DNA of 64,000 nt from Parahaliea mediterranea. GTDB taxonomy: Bacteria > Pseudomonadota > Gammaproteobacteria > Pseudomonadales > Halieaceae. The notes beneath the pieces were generated by a model. It worked only from the letters and a program-made list of their open reading frames with translations. It was not told where the DNA came from and did not search any database. The position numbers were made by a program, and so were the translations under genes. The stretch spans positions 310,001-374,000 of the forward strand of contig NZ_JAFKCZ010000005.1 of NCBI RefSeq assembly GCF_017255185.1, written 5' to 3'. Shown here piece by piece: positions 1 through 10,617 of the stretch (its first letter is position 1; each line of letters opens with the position of its first letter).

Positions 1-2134
1 CCTGGAAGTAGTTGGCGCCCAGGTACAGGGTGTGCTCGCTGGCGCCGGGCAGGGCGACGCCGGGCTCCACCGCGACAAAGGACGTGCCGTCGGCGATGAA
101 CTCCAGCAGGGTGGGGGACAGGGACTTCAGCTCGGTGTCGTTGTAAGTGTAGCTAGTGCGAATTTCCAGGTTGTCGCTGAGGTGGCCGCTGAACTCCGCC
201 TCCACGCCGCGGGACTGGGCCTCGCCGACGTTCACCACGCACAGCAGCCCGAGCCCGGTGCAGGACAGGTTGGACTGCATGTTGTCCCAGTCGATGTCGT
301 ACAGCGCCAGGGAGTAGCGGTAGCGCCCCGCCAGGCTGCCCTTGACGCCGACTTCCAGGTTCTCGGTGGTGTCGGGCTCGTAGAGGAAGGCCTTGTTGTT
401 GATCGCCGCGCCGAAGGCCTCGTTGGGCAGGCCGTTGGCGCCGCCGCGGCGGAAGCCTTCCGACCACACCACGTAGAGGTTGGTGTCGTCGTTGAGGTAG
501 TAGGAACTGTTGAACTTGAACAGCGAGTCCGAGTCCTCGGTGTCGAGGCTGCGCGCGGCGATGCCGCCGGGCACGAACTCCAGGCCGCCCACCTGGGTGG
601 TCTCGAAGGTCTGGTCGTAGTAGCGCACGCCGCCGGTCACCTGCCACTGCTCGGTGATGTGCCAGGTCAGCTCGCCGAACAGGGCGCGGTCCTCGAAGGT
701 GTTGTTCTGGTCCACCAGGTAGGCCTCGTCCTTGACGATGGGCACCGGGCCGTTGGAATCCTGCAAGCCGAACAGGGTGCCCAGGCCGCAGGGGTTGCCG
801 CCGAAGGTGCCGGTCTCGATAAAACAGGCATTGGCGTAGTCGTCGTAGCCGTAGTAGTACTGGCGGGCCGACATCGCCGTGTCCTGCTCCATGTAAAACG
901 CGCCCACCACCCAGTTGAAGGGGCCGTCCCCCTGGGATACCAGGCGCGCCTCGAACACGTCGCCTTCATCGTCGAAGGCGGATTTGTCCTCGATCAGCGG
1001 ACGCGGGCTGTTGCCGTAATAGGCTTCCCAGAAGCTGAACAGCTCGTAGAACCCGGTGAGATCGCGGGAGCCCTGGCCCTCGGACTGGTAGCGCGAGGCC
1101 GAGGCGGTAAAAGTGGCGAAGCCCATGTCGACGTCGACATCCAGGGCGAACACATCCACCTCCCGTTCGAAGGGCTCGGCGATCAGCGCGGCGTTTTTCA
1201 GCGAGTCCTCGCCAAACATCGCGTAGGAGTTCATCTGCGTGCCGCCCACGTCGTCGCTCTGGTGGTGGTAGCTCAGGTGGGCGGCCATCCTGTCGCTGGG
1301 CTGCCAGGCAGCTGCCAGGCGATAGCTTTCGGTCTCGGCGTCGTTGACCCCCTCGGCGTGTTCGAACACCGGCTGGCCGGCGTAGACATTGGCGGAGTCG
1401 TTGATCGGGTCGGTGGCGCCGTTGTCCAGCACCGGCGAGCCGTCGGGGTGGCGTCTGTAGCGCGCCACCTGGTCGATAAACCCGGCCTGCTCGGCGTAGC
1501 CGACGCTGGCGCGCAGGCCGAAGGTGTCGGTGACCGGCAGGTTCAGCATCAGGTCGCTCTCGTAATTGATGCCGTCGCCGTTCTTGGTTTGGCTCACGCC
1601 GCCGCTGAGCTCGCCGTAGAAGGCGCTGAGGTCGGGCTTGTTGTAGATGTAGCGTACCGAGCCGCCGAGGGAACCGGAGCCGTACAGGGTGCCCTGGGGC
1701 CCGCGCAACACTTCCACCCGCTCGATATCGCGCAGGCGCAGGTTGGCGAACAGGGGCGTTTCGTTGATGTAGGTGGAGACCACCGGGGCGGTTTGCATCG
1801 GGCCCTGGTTGCGCGACAGCACTTCCGAGTTGATGCCGCGGATGATGAGGTTGGCGTTGTTCACGCCGCTGCGCGGGCCCTGCTCGATGAAGTTGACCCC
1901 GGTGGTCACGCGGAACAGGTCCGCCGCGGAACTGATGCCCGCCTTGTTGAGGTCGTTGCCGGTCAGGGCGCTGATGTTGTAGGGCACGTCCTGTACCGAG
2001 GCGTCCCTGCGGGTGGCAGTGACCACGACTTCCTCCAGCGCGGGGCCCTGGGCCACGGCGGTGGCGGGCAGGGTGGCCAGGGTTGCGCTGAACACGGCGC
2101 CGGACAGCAGGGTTTTGGAATAGGGTAGGTTCAT
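1..2134 (-). CDS. TonB-dependent receptor, C-terminus cut by window edge
   Basis: Outer-membrane, TonB-energised uptake receptor. The reverse complement starts MNLPYSKTLLSGAVFSATL, a signal peptide ending near AVAQG. A TonB-box-like stretch EEVVVTATRR follows, then a plug domain with the typical VEVLRGPQGTLYGSGSLGG signature and a long barrel region. About 711 codons are visible and the frame runs off the left edge, so the last strands are missing. It starts only 40 bp after the DUF917 gene on the same strand, which makes it the likely last gene of the permease, hydantoinase-like, DUF917 operon. The substrate is unknown; context suggests the compound processed by those enzymes. The family call is secure, the substrate link is inference. 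Confidence 0.9.
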   Translation of the reverse strand, partial: MNLPYSKTLLSGAVFSATLATLPATAVAQGPALEEVVVTATRRDASVQDVPYNISALTGNDLNKAGISSAADLFRVTTGVNFIEQGPRSGVNNANLIIRGINSEVLSRNQGPMQTAPVVSTYINETPLFANLRLRDIERVEVLRGPQGTLYGSGSLGGSVRYIYNKPDLSAFYGELSGGVSQTKNGDGINYESDLMLNLPVTDTFGLRASVGYAEQAGFIDQVARYRRHPDGSPVLDNGATDPINDSANVYAGQPVFEHAEGVNDAETESYRLAAAWQPSDRMAAHLSYHHQSDDVGGTQMNSYAMFGEDSLKNAALIAEPFEREVDVFALDVDVDMGFATFTASASRYQSEGQGSRDLTGFYELFSFWEAYYGNSPRPLIEDKSAFDDEGDVFEARLVSQGDGPFNWVVGAFYMEQDTAMSARQYYYGYDDYANACFIETGTFGGNPCGLGTLFGLQDSNGPVPIVKDEAYLVDQNNTFEDRALFGELTWHITEQWQVTGGVRYYDQTFETTQVGGLEFVPGGIAARSLDTEDSDSLFKFNSSYYLNDDTNLYVVWSEGFRRGGANGLPNEAFGAAINNKAFLYEPDTTENLEVGVKGSLAGRYRYSLALYDIDWDNMQSNLSCTGLGLLCVVNVGEAQSRGVEAEFSGHLSDNLEIRTSYTYNDTELKSLSPTLLEFIADGTSFVAVEPGVALPGASEHTLYLGANYFQ

Positions 2135-2174
2135 GGCTTGTCCCTCTTGGATTAACTTGTATGGGGCTGCGTGC

Positions 2175-3287
2175 TCAGGCGGCTGGCGTGCGCGTGGCCA
2201 CCAGCTCTTCTATGGGGCGGTAGTCGAAATCGAAACCGAAACAGCCCGGCGCGACGAACTCCAGCGCGCGGGCGCTGCGGTAGAAGGCCGGGCAGCCAAT
2301 GCCGAACACCGTGACCCGCTGGCCGAAGCGCAGGCGCTCGGCATTGATCGGGGTGGAGGTCTCGTAGTCGACGATGGTGATCAGGTCCGGCACCGAGGCC
2401 AGCAACTGGCCGTTCAGCTCGGCGGTGAGGTATTCGTTCTTGATACTGATATTGAGCACCCGGGATTCGTCGTCAAAGGCCTGTATGTGGGCCTGGCCAA
2501 TGTCGTAGCCGCCGATGATCCGGGTGCTGCTGTCGACGACCTTGCCGGTAAACAGATGGTGCAAACCGCCGTAGATGGAATCGCGGAACAGCGCCGCCAG
2601 GGGCTCGAAGATCTGCCGGGCATTGCCGCGGTTGGCGCGCAACACCCGCCCCAGGGCGATGGAGAAGCTCACCGTGTTGGGCACGATGGCGGCCTTGAGC
2701 TGGCGCCCGCTCATGGGGTGTTCGGCGGAGGTGATCATGCCGCCGGAACTGAGGGCGCACTGGCGGATGTCCCGCTCGAAGGCGAGGATGTCGGTGGTGT
2801 CGAAGGTGGTGACCTTGCCCTCGTAGTCGGTGGCCACGGCGGGGGTGGGCAGCACGCCGGAGATCGGGTAGGTCATCATCTGCGCTTCGGGCAGGGCCCG
2901 GCCCATGCCGTCGCCGTCGATCACCGGGATGCCGCGGGCGGCGGCCGCCACGATGGGGATTAGGGAGTTGCCGCCGCCGATCTCGAAGGACACCAGGGCG
3001 TCAATGCGCCGGCCAACCCGCTGCTCGAAGGCGTCGAGGGTGGCGATGGCCTCGTCGATGGAGGGCAGCAACTCCAGGCTGACGGTGGGCGCGCCCACGC
3101 CGCCGATGGCCACCACGTAGGCCTCGTCGTCGAGTTCCTCTGGCGCCATCAGGTCCACGGGGCCGTAGGTGTCCAGGGCCTGCTCGGCTACCAGCTGGGC
3201 CACGTAGGGGTCGCCACCGCCGCCGGTGGCCAAAAATACCGCCCCGGCTGAGAGGTCGGCCAGGGATTCACTGCCCAGCTTGATCAT
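2175..3287 (-). CDS. DUF917 / S-methyl-thiohydantoin desulfurase-like protein
   Basis: 370-residue cytosolic protein. Family signatures are the glycine-rich N-terminus FLATGGGGDPYVAQL, the central SFEIGGGNSLIP and the VIDGDGMGRALPE motif, all typical of DUF917. Known members act with hydantoinase/oxoprolinase-type partners, and one branch desulfurises S-methyl thiohydantoins. The start codon overlaps the stop of the hydantoinase-like gene by 4 bases (ATGA), so translational coupling is likely and the two may form a complex. The real substrate cannot be read from sequence; a hydantoin, thiohydantoin or related cyclic amide is the best guess. Confidence 0.85.
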   Translation of the reverse strand: MIKLGSESLADLSAGAVFLATGGGGDPYVAQLVAEQALDTYGPVDLMAPEELDDEAYVVAIGGVGAPTVSLELLPSIDEAIATLDAFEQRVGRRIDALVSFEIGGGNSLIPIVAAAARGIPVIDGDGMGRALPEAQMMTYPISGVLPTPAVATDYEGKVTTFDTTDILAFERDIRQCALSSGGMITSAEHPMSGRQLKAAIVPNTVSFSIALGRVLRANRGNARQIFEPLAALFRDSIYGGLHHLFTGKVVDSSTRIIGGYDIGQAHIQAFDDESRVLNISIKNEYLTAELNGQLLASVPDLITIVDYETSTPINAERLRFGQRVTVFGIGCPAFYRSARALEFVAPGCFGFDFDYRPIEELVATRTPAA

Positions 3288-4843
3288 GCGGCCACTCCTT
3301 TGTTGATGCGTGCAATGTCGCCCACCGCCTTCAGGCGCAGGCGGGTGGAACCCTCGGCCATGTAGGAAATGGTGGTCTCCTCAATGTCCGCGATCCGCAC
3401 CGTGGCGGGGTCGGCGCCCGCCGCCACGGCATTGGCGTGGGCTTCCCGCGACAGGCGGCGGATGGCGTCCTCCCGGGGCTCCTCGCTGTAGGACACCAGG
3501 CGCTCCACCTCGCCGCCGATCTGGGCAATGGCGGCGCCGATGGCATTGGCCACGCCGGCGTGCTCGGGGCGCAGGATGCGCGCCGCGGCCTCCAGTTCGC
3601 CGCTCACCAGCACCGCGCCGCCGCCGACCAGCACCACCGGCAGGCGGTCCTTGCTGGGCAGCATGCGCTCGATGCCCTGGTTGAGCATGCGCCCGATGGT
3701 GGCGAGGCCGTTGGCCACCACTGCCGGCGCCAGGGAGACCGGGCGCGCGTCGCCGCCCAGGTCCAGTTTGCCGGCGGCTACCAGCAGGTCGGTGGCGGTC
3801 AGGGTCGAGCCGCCGAAGGCCAGGCCTTCGGTGACCAGCTTGTGGCCCACCGAGCGCGGGCCGATGCTGTGGCCGTCGTCGCGCACCAGGCTGCCGCCGC
3901 CGAGGCCGATGGCCAGGATGTCGGGCATGCGGAAATTGGTGCGCACGCCGCCCACCTCGATCACCACGTTGGATTCCCGCGGGAAGCCGCCCTGCAGCAC
4001 GCCGATGTCGGAGGTGGTGCCGCCGATGTCGACCACGATGGCATCCTCGAGACCGGTCAGCTTGCTGGCCCCGCGCAGGGAGTTGGTGGGGCCGGAGGCA
4101 AAGGTCAGGGCGGGGAACTGGCGCACGAATTCGGCATCCATCAGGGTGCCGTCGTTCTGGCTGATGTAGAAGGGGCAGCGCAGGCCGCGCCGGACCAGGG
4201 CCTCGCTGAAGGAGCGCACCACGCGGTCGGAAAAGGCCAGCAGGGAGGCGTTCAGCAGGGCGGCGTTTTCGCGCTCCAGCAGGCCGAGGCGGCCGATCTG
4301 GTGCGAGCATGTGATATTCACCCCGGGCAGGGCTGCGCGCAGCTGCTCCGCCACTGCCAGCTCCGGGGCCGCCGCCATCGGCGAGAACGCGGCGCTGATC
4401 GCCACGGTATCCAGGCCCTTGCGGCGGATGTCCGCGACCACGGTGGCGATCTCGCCCGCGTCCAGTTCCGCCAGCGGGCGGCCATCGTACAGGGTGCCGC
4501 CGTGCACCATGTAGGCGTGGCCGCCGAGTTCGCCGGCGATATCCCCGGGCCAGCCGGTCATCGGCGGCAGGCCGCGGCCGGAGGGCAGGCCGATGCGAAT
4601 GGCGGCGACCTCCGACAGCTGCCGGCGTTCGACCACCGCATTGGTGAACTGGGTGGTACCCAGCATCACCGCCTCGATACGGTCGGTTTCCACGGCGCTG
4701 TCGTCCAGCAGGTGTTCCAGGGCGTTGAACACGCCGCCGCTGACATCCGCCGTGGTCAGGGTTTTGATCGCGGAAACCACCTGGTCCCCGTCCAGTAGTA
4801 CCGCGTCGGTATGCGTGCCGCCGACGTCTATGCCAATTCTCAC
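3284..4843 (-). CDS. hydantoinase/oxoprolinase family protein (short HyuA type)
   Basis: Likely ATP-dependent hydrolase of a cyclic amide. With a GTG start at 4843 the protein begins MRIGIDVGGTHTDAVLLDG, the nucleotide-binding motif at the very N-terminus of this family. A GAGGAG ribosome-binding site lies 7 bases upstream. An in-frame ATG at 4870 would add nine residues and overlap the permease gene, so it is less likely. A second actin-fold motif, VVDIGGTTSDIGVL, lies near residue 270, and a glycine-rich LVGGGAVLVSGELE segment near residue 400. At 519 residues it is shorter than classical HyuA (about 690) and matches the short form that travels with DUF917. It follows the permease directly and overlaps the DUF917 start. 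Confidence 0.87.
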   Translation of the reverse strand: MRIGIDVGGTHTDAVLLDGDQVVSAIKTLTTADVSGGVFNALEHLLDDSAVETDRIEAVMLGTTQFTNAVVERRQLSEVAAIRIGLPSGRGLPPMTGWPGDIAGELGGHAYMVHGGTLYDGRPLAELDAGEIATVVADIRRKGLDTVAISAAFSPMAAAPELAVAEQLRAALPGVNITCSHQIGRLGLLERENAALLNASLLAFSDRVVRSFSEALVRRGLRCPFYISQNDGTLMDAEFVRQFPALTFASGPTNSLRGASKLTGLEDAIVVDIGGTTSDIGVLQGGFPRESNVVIEVGGVRTNFRMPDILAIGLGGGSLVRDDGHSIGPRSVGHKLVTEGLAFGGSTLTATDLLVAAGKLDLGGDARPVSLAPAVVANGLATIGRMLNQGIERMLPSKDRLPVVLVGGGAVLVSGELEAAARILRPEHAGVANAIGAAIAQIGGEVERLVSYSEEPREDAIRRLSREAHANAVAAGADPATVRIADIEETTISYMAEGSTRLRLKAVGDIARINKGVAA

Positions 4844-4847
4844 CGCA

Positions 4848-6140
4848 TCACTCCTCGATTGTCTTGCCACTTACCGGGGCGCCCCGCTGCGCCCGCTGCA
4901 ACAGGTAGTACACAGCGCTGGCCACCAGCACCGCGTCGATGGCGGCGATGCTGGACAGGGCGAACCAGCCCCAGGAGCCCATCAGGGCCACCGCCGCGCC
5001 CACCAGCCACGCGCTGATGGCGCTCACGCGGGCCGCTTGTAATTGCCGGATACGCGCGCCGTGGTAGGCCTCGCGCCGGCACAGGCAGTAGTCCACCGCG
5101 ATCACCCCGGAAACCGGCACGAAGGCGATGGACAGGTAAAACAGGAAGTCCAGGAAGTACTCCAGGATGTTGAAGAAGGCCGCCACGGTGCCCAGCGCGC
5201 CGCTGGCCAGGATCAGTACCCGGTTGTTCAGCGCGGGGAGGGTGGACTCCACGCTGAGCATGGTGCTGTAGAGGTTCAGGGAATTGAGCACCCAGCTGCC
5301 GAAGATCACCACCGCGAAGGCGGCCCAGCCGATGCCCAGGGCGACCAGGATATTCAGCAGGTCGTCGTCCACCAGCGCCGTGGAGGCGATAGCGCCGGCG
5401 CCCATGACCACGATGGTGACGAAGAAGTAGGACAGCACCACCCCGTAGATCGCGTGGCGCCAGTGGCGCAGGAAGCGGGTGATGTCGGGCAGGATGACGG
5501 CGCCGACGATAACGCCGCCCACCACCGCTGAAACCCCGTTGCCGTAGGCGGCGAGCGCCGTGGCCGGTCGCGCCATCAGTTCGTCGAGGGAAGCCACGGC
5601 GAGGGAACCCGCGATCAGCTGCACGGTGACCACCATCAGCACCGGCACCAGCAGGATGGACAGCAGGTTGATGGCGCGGAAGCCGAAGAAGGTAGTCAGC
5701 GTCATCAGCGCCCCGGCGAACAGCTCCACTGGCCAGGCCGGGATGTCCCGGGCGAACAGGTCCCGGGACAGGCGCAACACTGCGTCCGAGAACAGATCGA
5801 TATTGACCCCGAACCAGCCCAGCAGGGACACCGCGAAGGCGAGATTGACCAGCGCCGCGCCGCGCTCGCCGAAGGCGATGCGATTGAGCATGTAGGAGCT
5901 CAGGCGCGTGGCGGCGCCGATGCCGCCGGTAATGCAGCCCAGCAGGGTGAGGATGGCGGCGCCGGCGACCAGCACGCTGGCGGTATCGGCGGCGGAGTAG
6001 ACCGCGGCCACTTCCAGGCCGGTGAGGAAGGTGGGCAGGGAAAAAGCCACCATTGCCGATACCATGGCGACCCGGAACCAGCCGACGGTGTTGGCGTCCG
6101 GGACCGGCTCGGTGGCGAATTCGTTGGCCTCTGTCTCCAT
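4848..6140 (-). CDS. NCS1-family cytosine/purine/hydantoin-type permease
   Basis: 430-residue integral membrane transporter, close to CodB-type length, with roughly twelve hydrophobic segments. The N-terminal stretch VSAMVAFSLPTFLTGLEVA and the next glycine-rich helix (LTLLGCITGGIGAATR) fit the nucleobase:cation symporter-1 family. Known substrates of this family are cytosine, allantoin, hydantoins and purines. As first gene of the operon with the hydantoinase-like and DUF917 proteins, it probably imports their substrate across the inner membrane after the TonB receptor has moved it across the outer one. Its stop lies 4 bases before the preferred GTG start of the hydantoinase-like gene. The substrate is inferred from context only. 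Confidence 0.85.
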   Translation of the reverse strand: METEANEFATEPVPDANTVGWFRVAMVSAMVAFSLPTFLTGLEVAAVYSAADTASVLVAGAAILTLLGCITGGIGAATRLSSYMLNRIAFGERGAALVNLAFAVSLLGWFGVNIDLFSDAVLRLSRDLFARDIPAWPVELFAGALMTLTTFFGFRAINLLSILLVPVLMVVTVQLIAGSLAVASLDELMARPATALAAYGNGVSAVVGGVIVGAVILPDITRFLRHWRHAIYGVVLSYFFVTIVVMGAGAIASTALVDDDLLNILVALGIGWAAFAVVIFGSWVLNSLNLYSTMLSVESTLPALNNRVLILASGALGTVAAFFNILEYFLDFLFYLSIAFVPVSGVIAVDYCLCRREAYHGARIRQLQAARVSAISAWLVGAAVALMGSWGWFALSSIAAIDAVLVASAVYYLLQRAQRGAPVSGKTIEE

Positions 6141-6203
6141 CGCGGGTACCAGGCGGTGAGCGTGAGGGGAGAAATTATGCCGAGGCGGCGGGAAAATGGG
6201 TTA

Positions 6204-6231
6204 TTGAACTGCCCTGCCGGTGCTTTAGAAT
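6204..6231 (+). promoter_or_regulatory. sigma70-like promoter of the Lrp/AsnC gene
   Basis: TTGAAC (6204-6209) and TAGAAT (6226-6231) are separated by 16 bases, close to the sigma-70 consensus. They lie 40 bp upstream of the regulator start, in the 130-bp region shared with the divergent permease operon. On the other strand a CATAAT at 6180-6175 could be the operon -10 element, without a convincing -35. Confidence 0.5.
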
Positions 6232-6270
6232 CTTCGGGTCACGCGCTATGAATTGAAAGAAGTTTTTGTT

Positions 6271-6768
6271 ATGGCCAAGAAGAAGTCGGTCAAACTGGAT
6301 GCGATCAACCGCAAGATCCTGGCCACTATCCACCTGCAGTCCGATATCACCAACGCCAAGCTGGCGGAACTGGTGAACCTGTCCCCGGCCGCCTGCTCCC
6401 AGCGCACCAAGGCCCTGCGCGACGCCGGGTATTACTTCAATTGCCACACCGAGGTCGACCTCGACCGCATCTGCGAGCACGTGATCGCCTATGTGGAGTT
6501 CACCCTGCGCGACAACAGCCTGCCCGCGCGCCGGCGCTTCGAGGCCGCCATCGAGACCATGCCCGAATTCATGGATTGCCTGCGCCTGAGCGGCGACACC
6601 GATTATATCTCCTTCACCTGCTGCAGCGACGTCAACGAGCTCAACCGCCTGTGCGATGAGCTCAGCGGCAACGAGGCGCTGGGCATCAGCCGGGTGGTGA
6701 CCCGCATCGTGCTGGAGCGGCCCAAGTTCTACCTGGGCTACCCGATCGAGAAGCTGAAGTGGTTGTAG
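6271..6768 (+). CDS. Lrp/AsnC-family transcriptional regulator
   Basis: 165-residue DNA-binding regulator. The N-terminus (LDAINRKILATIHLQSDITNAKLAELVNLSPAACSQRTKALRDAG) forms the Lrp-type winged helix-turn-helix. The rest matches the RAM ligand-binding and oligomerisation domain, with GDTDYISFTC as the usual G-D-Y signature. The ATG at 6271 is chosen over an upstream in-frame TTG at 6253, because the purine-rich GAAAGAAG just before it can serve as ribosome-binding site and the family starts here. It is divergent from the permease operon and probably controls it in response to an amino acid or the imported compound. Confidence 0.88.
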   Translation: MAKKKSVKLDAINRKILATIHLQSDITNAKLAELVNLSPAACSQRTKALRDAGYYFNCHTEVDLDRICEHVIAYVEFTLRDNSLPARRRFEAAIETMPEFMDCLRLSGDTDYISFTCCSDVNELNRLCDELSGNEALGISRVVTRIVLERPKFYLGYPIEKLKWL

Positions 6769-6814: not shown

Positions 6815-8449
6815 CTATTCCTCGGCGGCGGCCATGTCGTCCTCGATGGCGTCCGCCGGCGCGGGGTCGGCCTCGAAGTCCTCGTCCTCGGCGCTGGCCG
6901 GCGGTGGTTCCGGGCCCGCATCGGGCGTATCGATCGCGGGGGCGCCCGCCTCCGGTTCGCCGGTGGGCGCGACCGGCACGTCCTCGGGCGCGCTGATCTG
7001 TTCCTGGGGCGCCTGGATGCCAATGTGGTGGGTGGCGAAGCCCGGCTGCACCACCTGGTTCAGGGCCATGCCCAGGATGCGGCCGTTGTAGCTGGAGCGG
7101 ATCTCGGTGCGCACGTTGGTGATCGGGTTGGTCACGGTGCCCAGCAGGTCGCCCTTGCGCACCACCTGGCCCAGGCTCACGCTGCTGAACACGATGCCGC
7201 CCTCGGGCGCGCGCTGCCAGGTGGAGTTGTAGTACACCGGTTCCGGGTCGCCCCAGAGGCTGAATTTGCTCACCATATCCAGGTGGTTGAGCAGGGTGCG
7301 GATACCCTTCACGCTGTGACTGACACTGTCCTCGCTGAGCACCATCGGCGCGCCGGCCTCCAGGGTGACCGCGGGGATGCCGGCCTCGACCGCCGCCCGC
7401 CGCAGCGTGCCCGCGCTGCCCTCGCTGTGCAGCACCACGGTGGAGCCGAAACTCTCGGTGAGTTTCACCACCTGGGGGTTGCGCAGGTCGCCGCGCAGCT
7501 GCGGCAGGTTGGTGCGGTAGAAGGAGCCGGTGTGCAGGTCGACCACCGCGCTGCAGTGCTTGATGACCTCGTGAAAGAAGGAGTGGGCGATGCGCGAGGC
7601 GGAGCTGCCGCCGGGGTCGCCGGGAAAGTAGCGGTTGAGGTCGCGGCGGTCGCTCAGGTAGCGCGAGCTGCGGTGGAAGCCCTGCAGGTTGACGATCGGC
7701 ACGCCGACCACCGTGCCCTTGAGTTTGTCCGCGTCCAGGTTGTAGAGCACCCGGCGCACCGTTTCCACGCCGTTGAGTTCGTCGCCGTGCACCGCGGCGG
7801 TCAGGCACAGGGTGGGGCCGGGCTCGGCGCCGTTGACCACCAGCACGGGAGTGGCGCTGTAGATGCCCTCGAAGGACTGGCTGGGCGCCCAGGCCAGGCG
7901 GGTTGATGTCGCCGGCGGTACCTCGGTGCCCAGCAGGACGAAGGGCGCCGGTGAGTCGGGACCGTCGTCGTCGGCCTCCGTCGCGGGGGTGGGGGACGCG
8001 GCTTCGGCGGGCGCGGGCGGCTGTTCCGCCGCGCCGGCATCGGCGGCGGGTTCCGCCACATCCTCCTGCGCCTCGGTGGTAGGGGCCTCGCGGTCGGCCT
8101 CCGCCGCCGCGGCGCTGGCGGGCGCGGCGCTATTGGGGTCCGCCGGTTCGCTGGCGGGCCTGGAGGCTTCCTCGCTGGAGATCGGTTGATCCAGGGCGAC
8201 ATTGCGCGCCTTGCGCACTTCGGCGGGGCTTGCTTCCCCCGCGTCTTCGCCGGTTCCGCGCGCCCGGGACGCGAGATCGTCGGCCCCGCCAGACGGGTTT
8301 TCGGGTCCGGATTCGCGTTGGCTGGCGGTGGTGGTGTTGGCGGGAGGTTCCGGGCTTGATGTCCCGGTGGGGTCGGAGGCGTGGGCGAACGCCGCCATGG
8401 CGCAAAGTGCCAGGCCGGTCGCCGCTGCCCCCAGGCGGTGATATTTCAT
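6815..8449 (-). CDS. exported succinylglutamate desuccinylase/aspartoacylase-like zinc hydrolase
   Basis: 544 residues. A signal peptide (MKYHRLGAAATGLALCAMAAFAHA) is followed by about 140 residues of low-complexity Ala/Pro/Glu/Ser sequence, then the AstE/aspartoacylase zinc-carboxypeptidase-like fold. Metal-binding motifs are AAVHGDELNG (HxxE) and VVDLHTGSF (second His); VTLEAGAP holds the likely catalytic Glu. The C-terminal part, GGIVFSSVSLGQVVRKGDL to NGRILGMALNQVVQPG, resembles the small beta domain these proteins carry. The last 50 residues are again acidic and Pro/Ala-rich. It probably cleaves an acyl or amide bond in the periplasm or at the surface. The substrate is unknown. The long disordered flanks are unusual for the family. 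Confidence 0.8.
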   Translation of the reverse strand: MKYHRLGAAATGLALCAMAAFAHASDPTGTSSPEPPANTTTASQRESGPENPSGGADDLASRARGTGEDAGEASPAEVRKARNVALDQPISSEEASRPASEPADPNSAAPASAAAAEADREAPTTEAQEDVAEPAADAGAAEQPPAPAEAASPTPATEADDDGPDSPAPFVLLGTEVPPATSTRLAWAPSQSFEGIYSATPVLVVNGAEPGPTLCLTAAVHGDELNGVETVRRVLYNLDADKLKGTVVGVPIVNLQGFHRSSRYLSDRRDLNRYFPGDPGGSSASRIAHSFFHEVIKHCSAVVDLHTGSFYRTNLPQLRGDLRNPQVVKLTESFGSTVVLHSEGSAGTLRRAAVEAGIPAVTLEAGAPMVLSEDSVSHSVKGIRTLLNHLDMVSKFSLWGDPEPVYYNSTWQRAPEGGIVFSSVSLGQVVRKGDLLGTVTNPITNVRTEIRSSYNGRILGMALNQVVQPGFATHHIGIQAPQEQISAPEDVPVAPTGEPEAGAPAIDTPDAGPEPPPASAEDEDFEADPAPADAIEDDMAAAEE

Positions 8450-8643: not shown

Positions 8644-10617
8644 TCAGAAGCCCTCGCAGTCGGTGGCGGCGCCGTGATCGCAGCCGTCGCTGCCGATGTA
8701 GGACTGGGTGGAATATTCCTCCGCGGGCAGTTTGCCCAGCGGCATGCCCAGCGCCGTTTGCGCCTCCACGTAGTCGATAAAGCCCTGGGCGTATTCGGTG
8801 AAGGTGTCCACGAAGTTGCCGGCGTCGAAGATGGGGCCGAAGGTGTCGTAGCCGTCCTGGCCCGAGGCGATGAAGTCATTGGTGACCACGGTGTAGACCA
8901 TGCCGGTGTCGATGGGAGCCCAGCTGCCTGCGACCCGGGGGTTGACCTCGACGTTGCTAACCCGGGCGCCGAAGGACTGGGAGGCGTCAACGTCGTAGCG
9001 CAGGCCCGAGGCGTAGGGGTAGGAACCGCTCGAGCCGCCCTCGTCCAGGGCGTTGGCCAGGGCGTCCTCGAGCACGTCGATGATCTCCTGCCCGGTCATC
9101 TCCAGGGTCACCAGGGTGTTGGAGAAGGGCAGCAGGGTGAAGGCGTCGGCGATGGTGAAGTCGCCGGCGGCCACGTCCACCCGCACGCCGCCGCCGTTCT
9201 GGATGCCGATGTCCGCGGTGGGGGTTACGGTCATAAAGGCCTTGGCGACGATGTTGGAGATGTCACTGCCTCTATTATAGGTGGCGGAGACATCGCAAAG
9301 GGTGGACCGGCCCTGGTTGGGGAAGCGCTCCAGGCACAGGTCCCCGGCCACCGTGCCAATCACGGTTTGCTCGAGCACCGAGACCTCTTCGTCGAAGCCC
9401 GCGATCAGCGCGGTGGTGGCGGCGTCGGCCGCGGTGACCACAATCTCGTCTTCCGCGCTCAGGCGATCGGCGACGGCCATGGCGTCGCCGGCGTCGAGGA
9501 TGCGCGTTTCGGCGTCGCTGTATTCGTAGCTGAACTGGTCGGCGACGGGCATCAGCGGGCTGCCCGCGCAGGCGGTCACCATACCCTCGGCGTCGAAGCT
9601 GACGTCGAGTTTGCCCATCAGGTGAGCGTACTCCCAGGCCTGCACCACGCACACCGGCGCGCCGGCTGAGTCGGTGACCTGGGTGGGATACTCGCCAACC
9701 GGGTTGAAGCCCAGGGTGGAAAAGGTGTCGTCACCCAGCAGCGAGTGGGAGTCGCCACCCACGATCACGTCCACGCCATCGAGCGCGCCGGCCATGGCTA
9801 CATCGTTCTGGTAGCCGTAGTGGGTCAGCAGCACGACCTTGTTGACGTCCATGTCGCGCAGTTCGTCGATGTACCGCTGGGCGGTTTCGGTCTCGTCCAG
9901 GAATTCGGTGTCGTCGTCCGGCTGGGAGGAGTTCTTGGTCTTGCCGGCGATGTCGATGCCGATAATGCCAATTTGCTCGCCGCCGCGCTCGACGATGGTG
10001 TAGGGCGCGATGTAGCCCTCGCGGATGGCCGAGGAGTCGCCCGGCACCACGTTCGCCGCCAGTACCGGGGTCGGCGTGTCGCAGGCGCCGCCGGCGAGCT
10101 CGTCCAGGAAGGCGGCCAGGCCGCTGTCGCCGTCGTCGAACTCGTGGTTGCCCAGGGCGAAGGCGTCGAAGCAGATCTGGTTCATCACGTCGGCGTCGGC
10201 GCTGCCGTTGAACAGGCTGTAGTAGAGGGTGCCGGTGATGGCGTCGCCGGCGTGCAGCTTGAGCACGTGCTCGCTGTCGGCGGCCAGTTGGTCGAACAGG
10301 GTGACCATCATCGGGAAGCCGCCGTAGGTGACTTCCACCTCGGCGACGGGTTCGCCGGCCTCGGTGGCGGCGGACAGGCCGAGGCCCGACACGTCGAAGT
10401 CGAAGCGTTCCGCCGGAATGTGCGAGTGGTGGTCGTTGATGTGCAGGATGGTGAGATCCAGTGGCTGTCCCGCGGGCTCGGGCTCGGGTTCGGTGGGGGG
10501 CTCCGTGGTGTCCGGCAGGTCGGGGGTGTTCGGGTTGTCGCTGCTGTCCGAGCAGCCCGCGAGCAGCAACAGGCTGCCCAGGGAGGCCGCGGCTATGGCC
10601 CTCGGTAGGCGTTTCAT
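8644..10617 (-). CDS. bifunctional metallophosphatase / 5'-nucleotidase lipoprotein
   Basis: 657 residues. Lipoprotein signal with lipobox LLAGC (Cys22), then an acidic Pro/Glu linker, so it is probably lipid-anchored in the periplasm or at the outer membrane. The catalytic calcineurin-like metallophosphatase domain shows LTILHINDHHSHI, GNHEFDDG, LTHYGYQND and GGDSHSLLG, which carry the two-metal ligands. The C-terminal 5'-nucleotidase domain (from about residue 400) carries the substrate-binding part, including QNGGGVRVDVAAGDFT and GSYPYASGLRYDVDAS. It likely removes phosphate from external nucleotides so that nucleosides can be salvaged. It is upstream of the AstE-like gene on the same strand but separated from it by about 190 bp. 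Confidence 0.92.
   Translation of the reverse strand: MKRLPRAIAAASLGSLLLLAGCSDSSDNPNTPDLPDTTEPPTEPEPEPAGQPLDLTILHINDHHSHIPAERFDFDVSGLGLSAATEAGEPVAEVEVTYGGFPMMVTLFDQLAADSEHVLKLHAGDAITGTLYYSLFNGSADADVMNQICFDAFALGNHEFDDGDSGLAAFLDELAGGACDTPTPVLAANVVPGDSSAIREGYIAPYTIVERGGEQIGIIGIDIAGKTKNSSQPDDDTEFLDETETAQRYIDELRDMDVNKVVLLTHYGYQNDVAMAGALDGVDVIVGGDSHSLLGDDTFSTLGFNPVGEYPTQVTDSAGAPVCVVQAWEYAHLMGKLDVSFDAEGMVTACAGSPLMPVADQFSYEYSDAETRILDAGDAMAVADRLSAEDEIVVTAADAATTALIAGFDEEVSVLEQTVIGTVAGDLCLERFPNQGRSTLCDVSATYNRGSDISNIVAKAFMTVTPTADIGIQNGGGVRVDVAAGDFTIADAFTLLPFSNTLVTLEMTGQEIIDVLEDALANALDEGGSSGSYPYASGLRYDVDASQSFGARVSNVEVNPRVAGSWAPIDTGMVYTVVTNDFIASGQDGYDTFGPIFDAGNFVDTFTEYAQGFIDYVEAQTALGMPLGKLPAEEYSTQSYIGSDGCDHGAATDCEGF

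Follow-up and report, generated by a model that had tools for sequence, protein, structure and literature searches.

The 64,000-nucleotide stretch of Parahaliea mediterranea DNA studied here (hereafter the window) covers C5:310001-374000 of a 5.03-Mb assembly in 45 contigs. Its left end carries four genes of one strand that encode an NCS1-family permease, a short HyuA-type subunit, a DUF917 protein and a TonB-dependent receptor, and an Lrp/AsnC regulator gene diverges from them (Table 1). HyuA and DUF917 recur as neighbours in many other genomes, and receptors of several groups stand beside them repeatedly. We discuss what such a unit might take up and degrade.

Table 1. Features of the operon region, with positions in the window
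Feature	Position	Strand	Remark
NCS1-family permease, 430 amino acids	4848..6140	-	Proposed inner-membrane uptake; Pfam
Short HyuA-type ATPase subunit, 528 amino acids, Hydant_A_N and Hydantoinase_A domains	3284..4870	-	Pfam
DUF917 (S-Me-THD-like) protein, 370 amino acids	2175..3287	-	Proposed HyuA partner; Pfam
TonB-dependent receptor, N-terminal 711 of 805 amino acids inside the window	1..2134	-	Plug and barrel domains
Divergent Lrp/AsnC regulator	6253..6768	+	Pfam
Divergent promoter region, motif TTCAATAACCCATTTT as candidate operator	6141..6270		

Operon layout and protein families

An earlier note on this DNA had described the four genes as lying head to tail with overlaps or gaps of at most 40 bp, and a diverging Lrp gene; the coordinates and the Pfam searches, which confirm the family of each of the five genes, agree with both descriptions. 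The permease and HyuA genes overlap by 23 bp, the HyuA and DUF917 genes by 4 bp, and a 40-bp gap separates DUF917 from the receptor. In the assembly the receptor is complete, as a stop-free frame of 805 amino acids (L002:13717-16134, minus strand). It is followed by a terminator-like hairpin of 13 pairs with a T tail and, further downstream, by an IscR-like Rrf2 regulator gene (the score of its product is slightly under the IscR cut-offs) and then by sufB, sufC, sufD, sufS and sufT. Thus, the unit consists of four genes. The closest named relative of its DUF917 protein is found in another member of the Halieaceae, Parahaliea aestuarii, with 94% identity.

The HyuA protein matched the large subunits of ATP-dependent hydantoinases and caprolactamases over their N-terminal and central parts. 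Its AlphaFold2 model (predicted local distance difference test score, pLDDT, 84) gave as best Foldseek matches N-methylhydantoinase (9h03), acetone and acetophenone carboxylases and caprolactamase (6yra), all of which use ATP, and its glycine-rich stretches are strongly conserved. It thus has the ATP-binding fold of the HyuA subunit of HyuAB-type cyclic amidases, and the chemistry of this superfamily suggests that it uses ATP to activate an amide carbonyl. No HyuB gene (PF02538) is present in the operon; the one found in the genome lies about 80 kb away (C5:394254).

The DUF917 protein carries the S-Me-THD_N and S-Me-THD_C domains, which place it in the S-Me-THD superfamily of Pfam. A Foldseek search with its AlphaFold2 model (pLDDT 88) for a distant enzyme relative returned a single match at E<0.001, 2o3i, a structural-genomics protein of unassigned function. 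Over the 87 sequences of the wider clade that were counted, out of 92, the residues T21, G22-G24, D26, P27, E72, E102 and D126 were at least 99% conserved; set aside were the two copies of the ergothioneine-type locus L108 discussed below, and three plasmid second copies, in which position 21 is T or S and position 102 is E. Long open frames at L023 and L156 looked like natural fusions of HyuA and DUF917, and were rejected as two genes in different frames.

The permease scored 63 bits with PF02133 and 170 bits with PRK11017, for which the cut-off is 326 bits. It belongs to the same NCS1 family as CodB (7qoa) and Mhp1 (2jln) and stays under the NCBIfam cut-offs. Among solved structures it is nearest to the CodB-type cytosine permease (E 6e-26), with Mhp1 farther off (E 2e-4), so that within this comparison it does not class as an Mhp1-type hydantoin permease.

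The receptor scored 59.4 bits for the plug domain (cut-off 23.9) and 102.8 bits for the barrel (cut-off 27), and is a member of the TonB-dependent receptors. Read by eye, its sequence begins with a signal peptide and contains a TonB-box-like EEVVVTATR. Its N-terminal 710 amino acids reached 122 bits with the siderophore subfamily TIGR01783, under the cut-off of 223.5 bits. A siderophore receptor was rejected on this score and on the position of the suf genes behind the terminator-like hairpin.

The HyuA-DUF917 pair and its receptors in other genomes

One genome was scanned per species for close similarity to the window DUF917, which yielded 56 named loci, a non-random sample. HyuA precedes DUF917 in 55 of them, with a frame of 106 codons between the two genes at L042, and the order NCS1-HyuA-DUF917 is kept in 48. 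The permease gene is missing from the other eight: in five a contig end truncates the locus (L049, L064, L065, L079 and L081), and three lack the gene (L058, L071 and L077). A DUF917 match is present in 27 of the 140 Halieaceae genomes, our own among them, the matches being of several clades. In an even draw of 398 Pseudomonadota genomes, 11, own included, have a short HyuA at E 1e-60, and DUF917 adjoins HyuA in all ten loci other than our own. Moreover, the pair occurs on plasmids of Bacillota, Actinomycetota, Alpha- and Betaproteobacteria and the archaeon Haloferax. Since they are neighbours in nearly all close loci, in every locus of the even sample and on plasmids, HyuA and DUF917 behave as a near-obligate pair. 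The exception among the close loci, L071 of an Aestuariibacter metagenome-assembled genome, looks like the remnant of an operon: at L071:7916-9062 a C-terminal Lrp fragment overlaps the start of DUF917, and NCS1 and HyuA are missing. The neighbours shared in Pseudohongiella-type loci (a GTPase with a KH domain, RecO, MazG, adenylate kinase, and TsaD-like, BacA and PNPOx proteins) were not retained as pathway members because they look like housekeeping synteny.

Of the 56 named loci, 25 have an Lrp gene next to the module on the opposite strand. In the window, a start at ATG 6271, which leaves 130 bp to the permease start, is likelier than the listed TTG 6253. Of 24 intergenic regions between Lrp and NCS1, 13 contain the motif TTCAAWAxCCTATTT (mean in shuffled sequences, 0.025), the pattern having been written after the sequences were viewed and several loci coming from one genus; two further regions, with a receptor in between, were left out of the 26. 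The motif extends over gamma- and alphaproteobacteria, among them Halieaceae, Alteromonadaceae and Kordiimonas, and is a candidate Lrp operator.

The P. mediterranea genome contains 119 plug domains, and therefore one adjacent receptor could be chance. Receptors were counted with profiles for the core genes and for the receptors built from the loci, within 400 bp of the module, an Lrp gene being skipped. To our own locus were added 54 of the 56 named ones and 16 regions from Halieaceae, which gave 71 loci. Left out were L090 and L091 (on the same contigs as L034 and L087, respectively), L071 (DUF917 without HyuA or NCS1), the ergothioneine-type L108, and L088 and L101, in which gene calling missed a core gene (L101 has a receptor nearby). 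A receptor was present at 23 of the 71 loci. In terms of usable flanks, this is 23 out of 124, where the receptor density of our own receptor-rich genome would predict about 2.9; the loci share kinship, so that independent events are fewer than 23. Beyond 4 kb, 279 kb of flank contained 4 receptors. The receptor shares the strand of the module in 20 of the 23 cases and lies on the opposite strand in three, all Alteromonas loci (L073, L080 and L086).

Single linkage sorts the 23 receptors into seven groups with a threshold of 400 bits and into five with one of 250 bits. The earlier note had named as refutation a receptor that is not conserved with the other three genes in relatives, and the receptor link survives this check in a modified form: the receptor type of the window (L000, our own, with L033, L034 and L089 at 400 bits) is kept with the module only in Halieaceae, but receptors of other groups take this place elsewhere. 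One other 400-bit group follows the module in L037 and precedes it in L041 and L043; another, of about 1030-1180 residues, follows it in L075 and L081 and precedes it in L093 and L095-L097. Two groups belong to a more distant HyuA-DUF917 clade (L102-L104 and L105-L107, respectively), and the remaining ones are the Alteromonas type and the singleton L054. A working link is indicated most strongly by the finding of one receptor group at opposite module ends in different taxa. Two of the ten even-sample loci (L152 and L153) have a receptor that adjoins DUF917, and the independent annotation of a Novosphingobium plasmid lists HyuA, DUF917, a racemase and a TonB-dependent receptor. We judge it very probable that the receptor serves the same substrate as the module.

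A gene for a tetratricopeptide repeat (TPR)-sulfotransferase is found beside a receptor near the module in nine loci (L034, L039, L049, L056, L059, L063, L068, L072 and L089), in varied orders and orientations; its domains were verified in L059 and assigned by similarity in the others. Elsewhere in our own genome, a Sulfotransfer_3 gene (C12:146936) lies just ahead of a receptor gene (C12:148162). A literature search on such pairing found nothing relevant, and the sulfotransferase was not kept as a pathway member: it stands beside receptors in several loci and shows no link to ring chemistry.

Candidate substrates and competing explanations

The earlier note saw in the unit outer-membrane uptake, inner-membrane uptake and ring processing under a divergent Lrp, an architecture that our analysis supports. 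The whole would be a substrate-inducible operon for uptake and ring opening, in which the receptor and then the NCS1 permease would carry a scarce cyclic amide across the outer and the inner membrane, respectively, and HyuA and DUF917 would open its ring at the expense of ATP. HyuA, with its N-methylhydantoinase/caprolactamase fold, would phosphorylate the amide carbonyl; because DUF917 is so strictly paired with HyuA, we infer that it would replace the missing HyuB and finish the hydrolysis. It is probable that the two proteins make up one ATP-dependent cyclic-amide enzyme. The substrate would most likely be a 2,5-diketopiperazine, or cyclic dipeptide; its opening would yield a linear dipeptide, which ordinary dipeptidases might split, and the Lrp regulator would sense the substrate or an amino-acid product. 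Receptor-fed, TonB-dependent uptake followed by ATP-dependent opening of cyclic dipeptides by HyuA and DUF917 is thus put forward tentatively.

The neighbours of the pair in other genomes suggest cyclic dipeptides more than other rings. Family-5 (Dpp/Opp) binding proteins flank HyuA-DUF917 in four of the ten even-sample loci (L151, L154, L155 and L157), the others having NCS1 (three), another ATP-binding cassette (ABC) transporter (two) or no recognised transporter (one), as labelled by similarity to proteins of confirmed family. Ten hand-picked transporter proteins from beside the pair comprised seven SBP_bac_5 proteins, one OPT protein and two of neither kind. A dipeptide-type ABC ATPase gene lies ahead of HyuA in L077, and an annotated dipeptide ABC transporter, with Lrp, beside the pair in Roseateles. 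Twenty plasmid matches were inspected, of which 19 are annotated, and the peptidase names are those of the annotators: an isoaspartyl peptidase and a dipeptidase occur in the same gene run on an Alloyangia plasmid, a membrane dipeptidase on a Paenarthrobacter plasmid, an M20 aminoacylase on one more, and an Xaa-Pro peptidase nearby, on the opposite strand, on one. An amidohydrolase gene is part of the operon in L068, L069, L072 and L075. In L068, L072 and L075 it encodes an Xaa-Pro dipeptidase equivalog (551, 559 and 616 bits, cut-off 500), each the sole over-cut-off copy of its genome, and the gene of L069, cut by a contig end, reaches 418 bits. In PMC11055893, clusters of cyclodipeptide oxidases are independently reported to hold DUF917 together with genes for hydantoin racemase, AroM, dipeptide ABC and OPT transporters and peptidases. 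A diketopiperazine, as a ring that releases a dipeptide, would account for the peptidases and the peptide transporters.

On the Enterococcus raffinosus plasmid L147, two tandem units of cytosine permease, DUF917 and HyuA, each behind a PucR regulator, lie near a proline racemase and the B subunit of a glycine/sarcosine/betaine reductase. These neighbours may link HyuA-DUF917 to proline-containing substrates in Bacillota.

Several points weigh against the proposal of cyclic dipeptides. Porins should let molecules as small as diketopiperazines pass, which would leave unexplained why a TonB receptor is needed, and NCS1 proteins of known substrate carry nucleobases and hydantoins. The operon of the window has no peptidase gene, and only three of the 19 annotated plasmid loci have a peptidase-type gene in the same gene run. 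Of the plasmid peptidases tested, two missed their NCBIfam cut-offs, namely the isoaspartyl peptidase at 243 bits (cut-off 567) and the Xaa-Pro peptidase at 153 bits (cut-off 630), and the membrane dipeptidase had no NCBIfam match at E 1e-30. The four linked Xaa-Pro dipeptidase cases probably represent only two events, and 17 of 50 further genomes, as well as that of L078, have an over-cut-off copy that is not within the retrieved locus. Hydantoin or Asp/Glu racemases and M20 enzymes near several copies suit hydantoins as well. Finally, unlike the clusters of PMC11055893, none of the 36 genomes or records showed a cyclodipeptide-oxidase B subunit, in a search in which no control matched.

Hydantoins are the main rival to cyclic dipeptides. 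The pair might form N-carbamoyl amino acids by opening the rings of substituted hydantoins or of related ureides, with NCS1 as the hydantoin permease. The HyuA and NCS1 families would both fit, as would the racemase genes beside several copies. The genome encodes a carbamoylase-family protein (C6:272016; 532 bits, cut-off 452) of the allantoate-amidohydrolase subfamily, and PMC11055893 proposes hydantoinase activity for DUF917. However, the window operon has no carbamoylase or racemase gene, its permease is nearer to cytosine permease than to Mhp1, peptide-type transporters accompany the pair in several loci without NCS1, and an Xaa-Pro dipeptidase in the operon would have no role in hydantoin breakdown. 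We regard hydantoins as a less likely substrate. Another cyclic amide, such as a lactam, a cyclic imide or a pyrimidine-derived ring, appears rather unlikely. Relatives of HyuA use caprolactam and N-methylhydantoin (molecule names of the structures; PMC6061476), and a CodB-like permease would suit a pyrimidine-derived ring, but no pyrimidine or lactam pathway gene was recognised among the scanned part of the neighbours.

The receptor might also be a hitch-hiker in an accidental position, the module working with porins alone. The wealth of plug domains in the genome and the 48 of 71 loci that have no receptor within 400 bp, some flanks being cut by contig ends, would allow this, yet the excess in the adjoining flanks, the scarcity of receptors beyond 4 kb and the several receptor groups, two of which are attached at different module ends in different taxa, make it improbable.

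The suggestion of the earlier note that the substrate could be a thiohydantoin from ergothioneine breakdown is very hard to credit: DUF917 does belong to the S-Me-THD superfamily, but the window protein reaches 119.9 of 450 and 97.2 of 440 bits with the desulfurase models NF058532 and NF058529, has T21 and E102 where both L108 copies have C and H, and comes from an operon without an ErtD- or ErtE-type gene. In the genome, the one aromatic-amino-acid lyase found (PF00221) is HutH (663 bits, cut-off 539), and ErtE is represented by a family relative at 325 of 520 bits, ErtD not having been searched genome-wide.

L108 itself (G042:C1:14400-31400), from a relative in the Halieaceae, is a probable ergothioneine-utilisation locus, as judged from its gene content, and shows that this family can carry such a locus with a receptor of its own. 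It encodes ErtD (638 bits, cut-off 600), ErtE (540, cut-off 520), a PF00221 aromatic-amino-acid-lyase-type protein (274 of 539 bits for HutH), a mercaptopyruvate sulfurtransferase-like protein and two DUF917 proteins, which at 282 and 260 of 450 bits are also under the desulfurase cut-off. The TonB-dependent receptor inside the locus is a candidate for uptake of ergothioneine or its methylated forms.

Surroundings, known systems and significance

Left of the window, between the terminator-like hairpin of the receptor and the IscR-like gene, lies a tandem array (L002:13216-13619) of 5.8 copies of a 71-bp unit that contains the palindrome-like GGTCGAATGAATTCGACC. At the other end of the operon region, an AstE/AspA-type deacylase gene (window 6818-8449), encoding long low-complexity N- and C-terminal parts, is convergent with Lrp and is preceded on its own strand by a gene for a 5'-nucleotidase-type protein (8647-10617).

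The unit shares parts with several described systems. HyuA/HyuB hydantoinases, 5-oxoprolinase and caprolactamase (N-methylhydantoinase 7hk5/9h03 and CapA 6yra) are like the window HyuA in fold and in the sequence of the ATPase part, and for caprolactamase the dependence on ATP is stated in PMC6061476. Their large subunits are of 658-732 amino acids, in contrast to the 528 of the window protein, and the operon has DUF917 in place of HyuB. With the S-methyl thiohydantoin and thiohydantoin desulfurases, the window protein has the DUF917 superfamily in common; it differs from them by scores of about one quarter of their cut-offs and by its pairing with HyuA, and from the L108 copies at positions 21, 26, 102 and 126. 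In Clostridioides difficile, an expression table in PMC12915319 lists CDR20291_1615-1617 as permease, DUF917 and hydantoinase, the three gene kinds of the window under consecutive numbers; in this Gram-positive bacterium, unlike in P. mediterranea, an outer-membrane receptor is not expected. PMC11055893 offers hydantoinases, purine metabolism or secondary metabolites as possible roles for the DUF917 clusters, and the word TonB does not occur in its main text. Our literature search, covering open-licence papers, found no function assigned to the HyuA-DUF917 pair. According to PMC3852281 (2013), several bacteria hydrolyse diketopiperazines and the responsible enzymes were unclear.

More speculatively, short HyuA and DUF917 could be the two parts of a widespread but unrecognised cyclic dipeptidase that depends on ATP and has DUF917 in place of HyuB, and to which marine Gram-negative bacteria would repeatedly have wired different TonB receptors. 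If this is true, the operon would be, as far as our searches show, the first system devoted to the uptake and catabolism of cyclic dipeptides, and a gene pair conserved in bacteria and archaea would supply candidates for diketopiperazine hydrolysis. The annotations 'hydantoinase' and 'thiohydantoin desulfurase-like' would need correcting in this clade. Moreover, the repeated recruitment of different receptors would extend TonB-dependent uptake to small cyclic amides.

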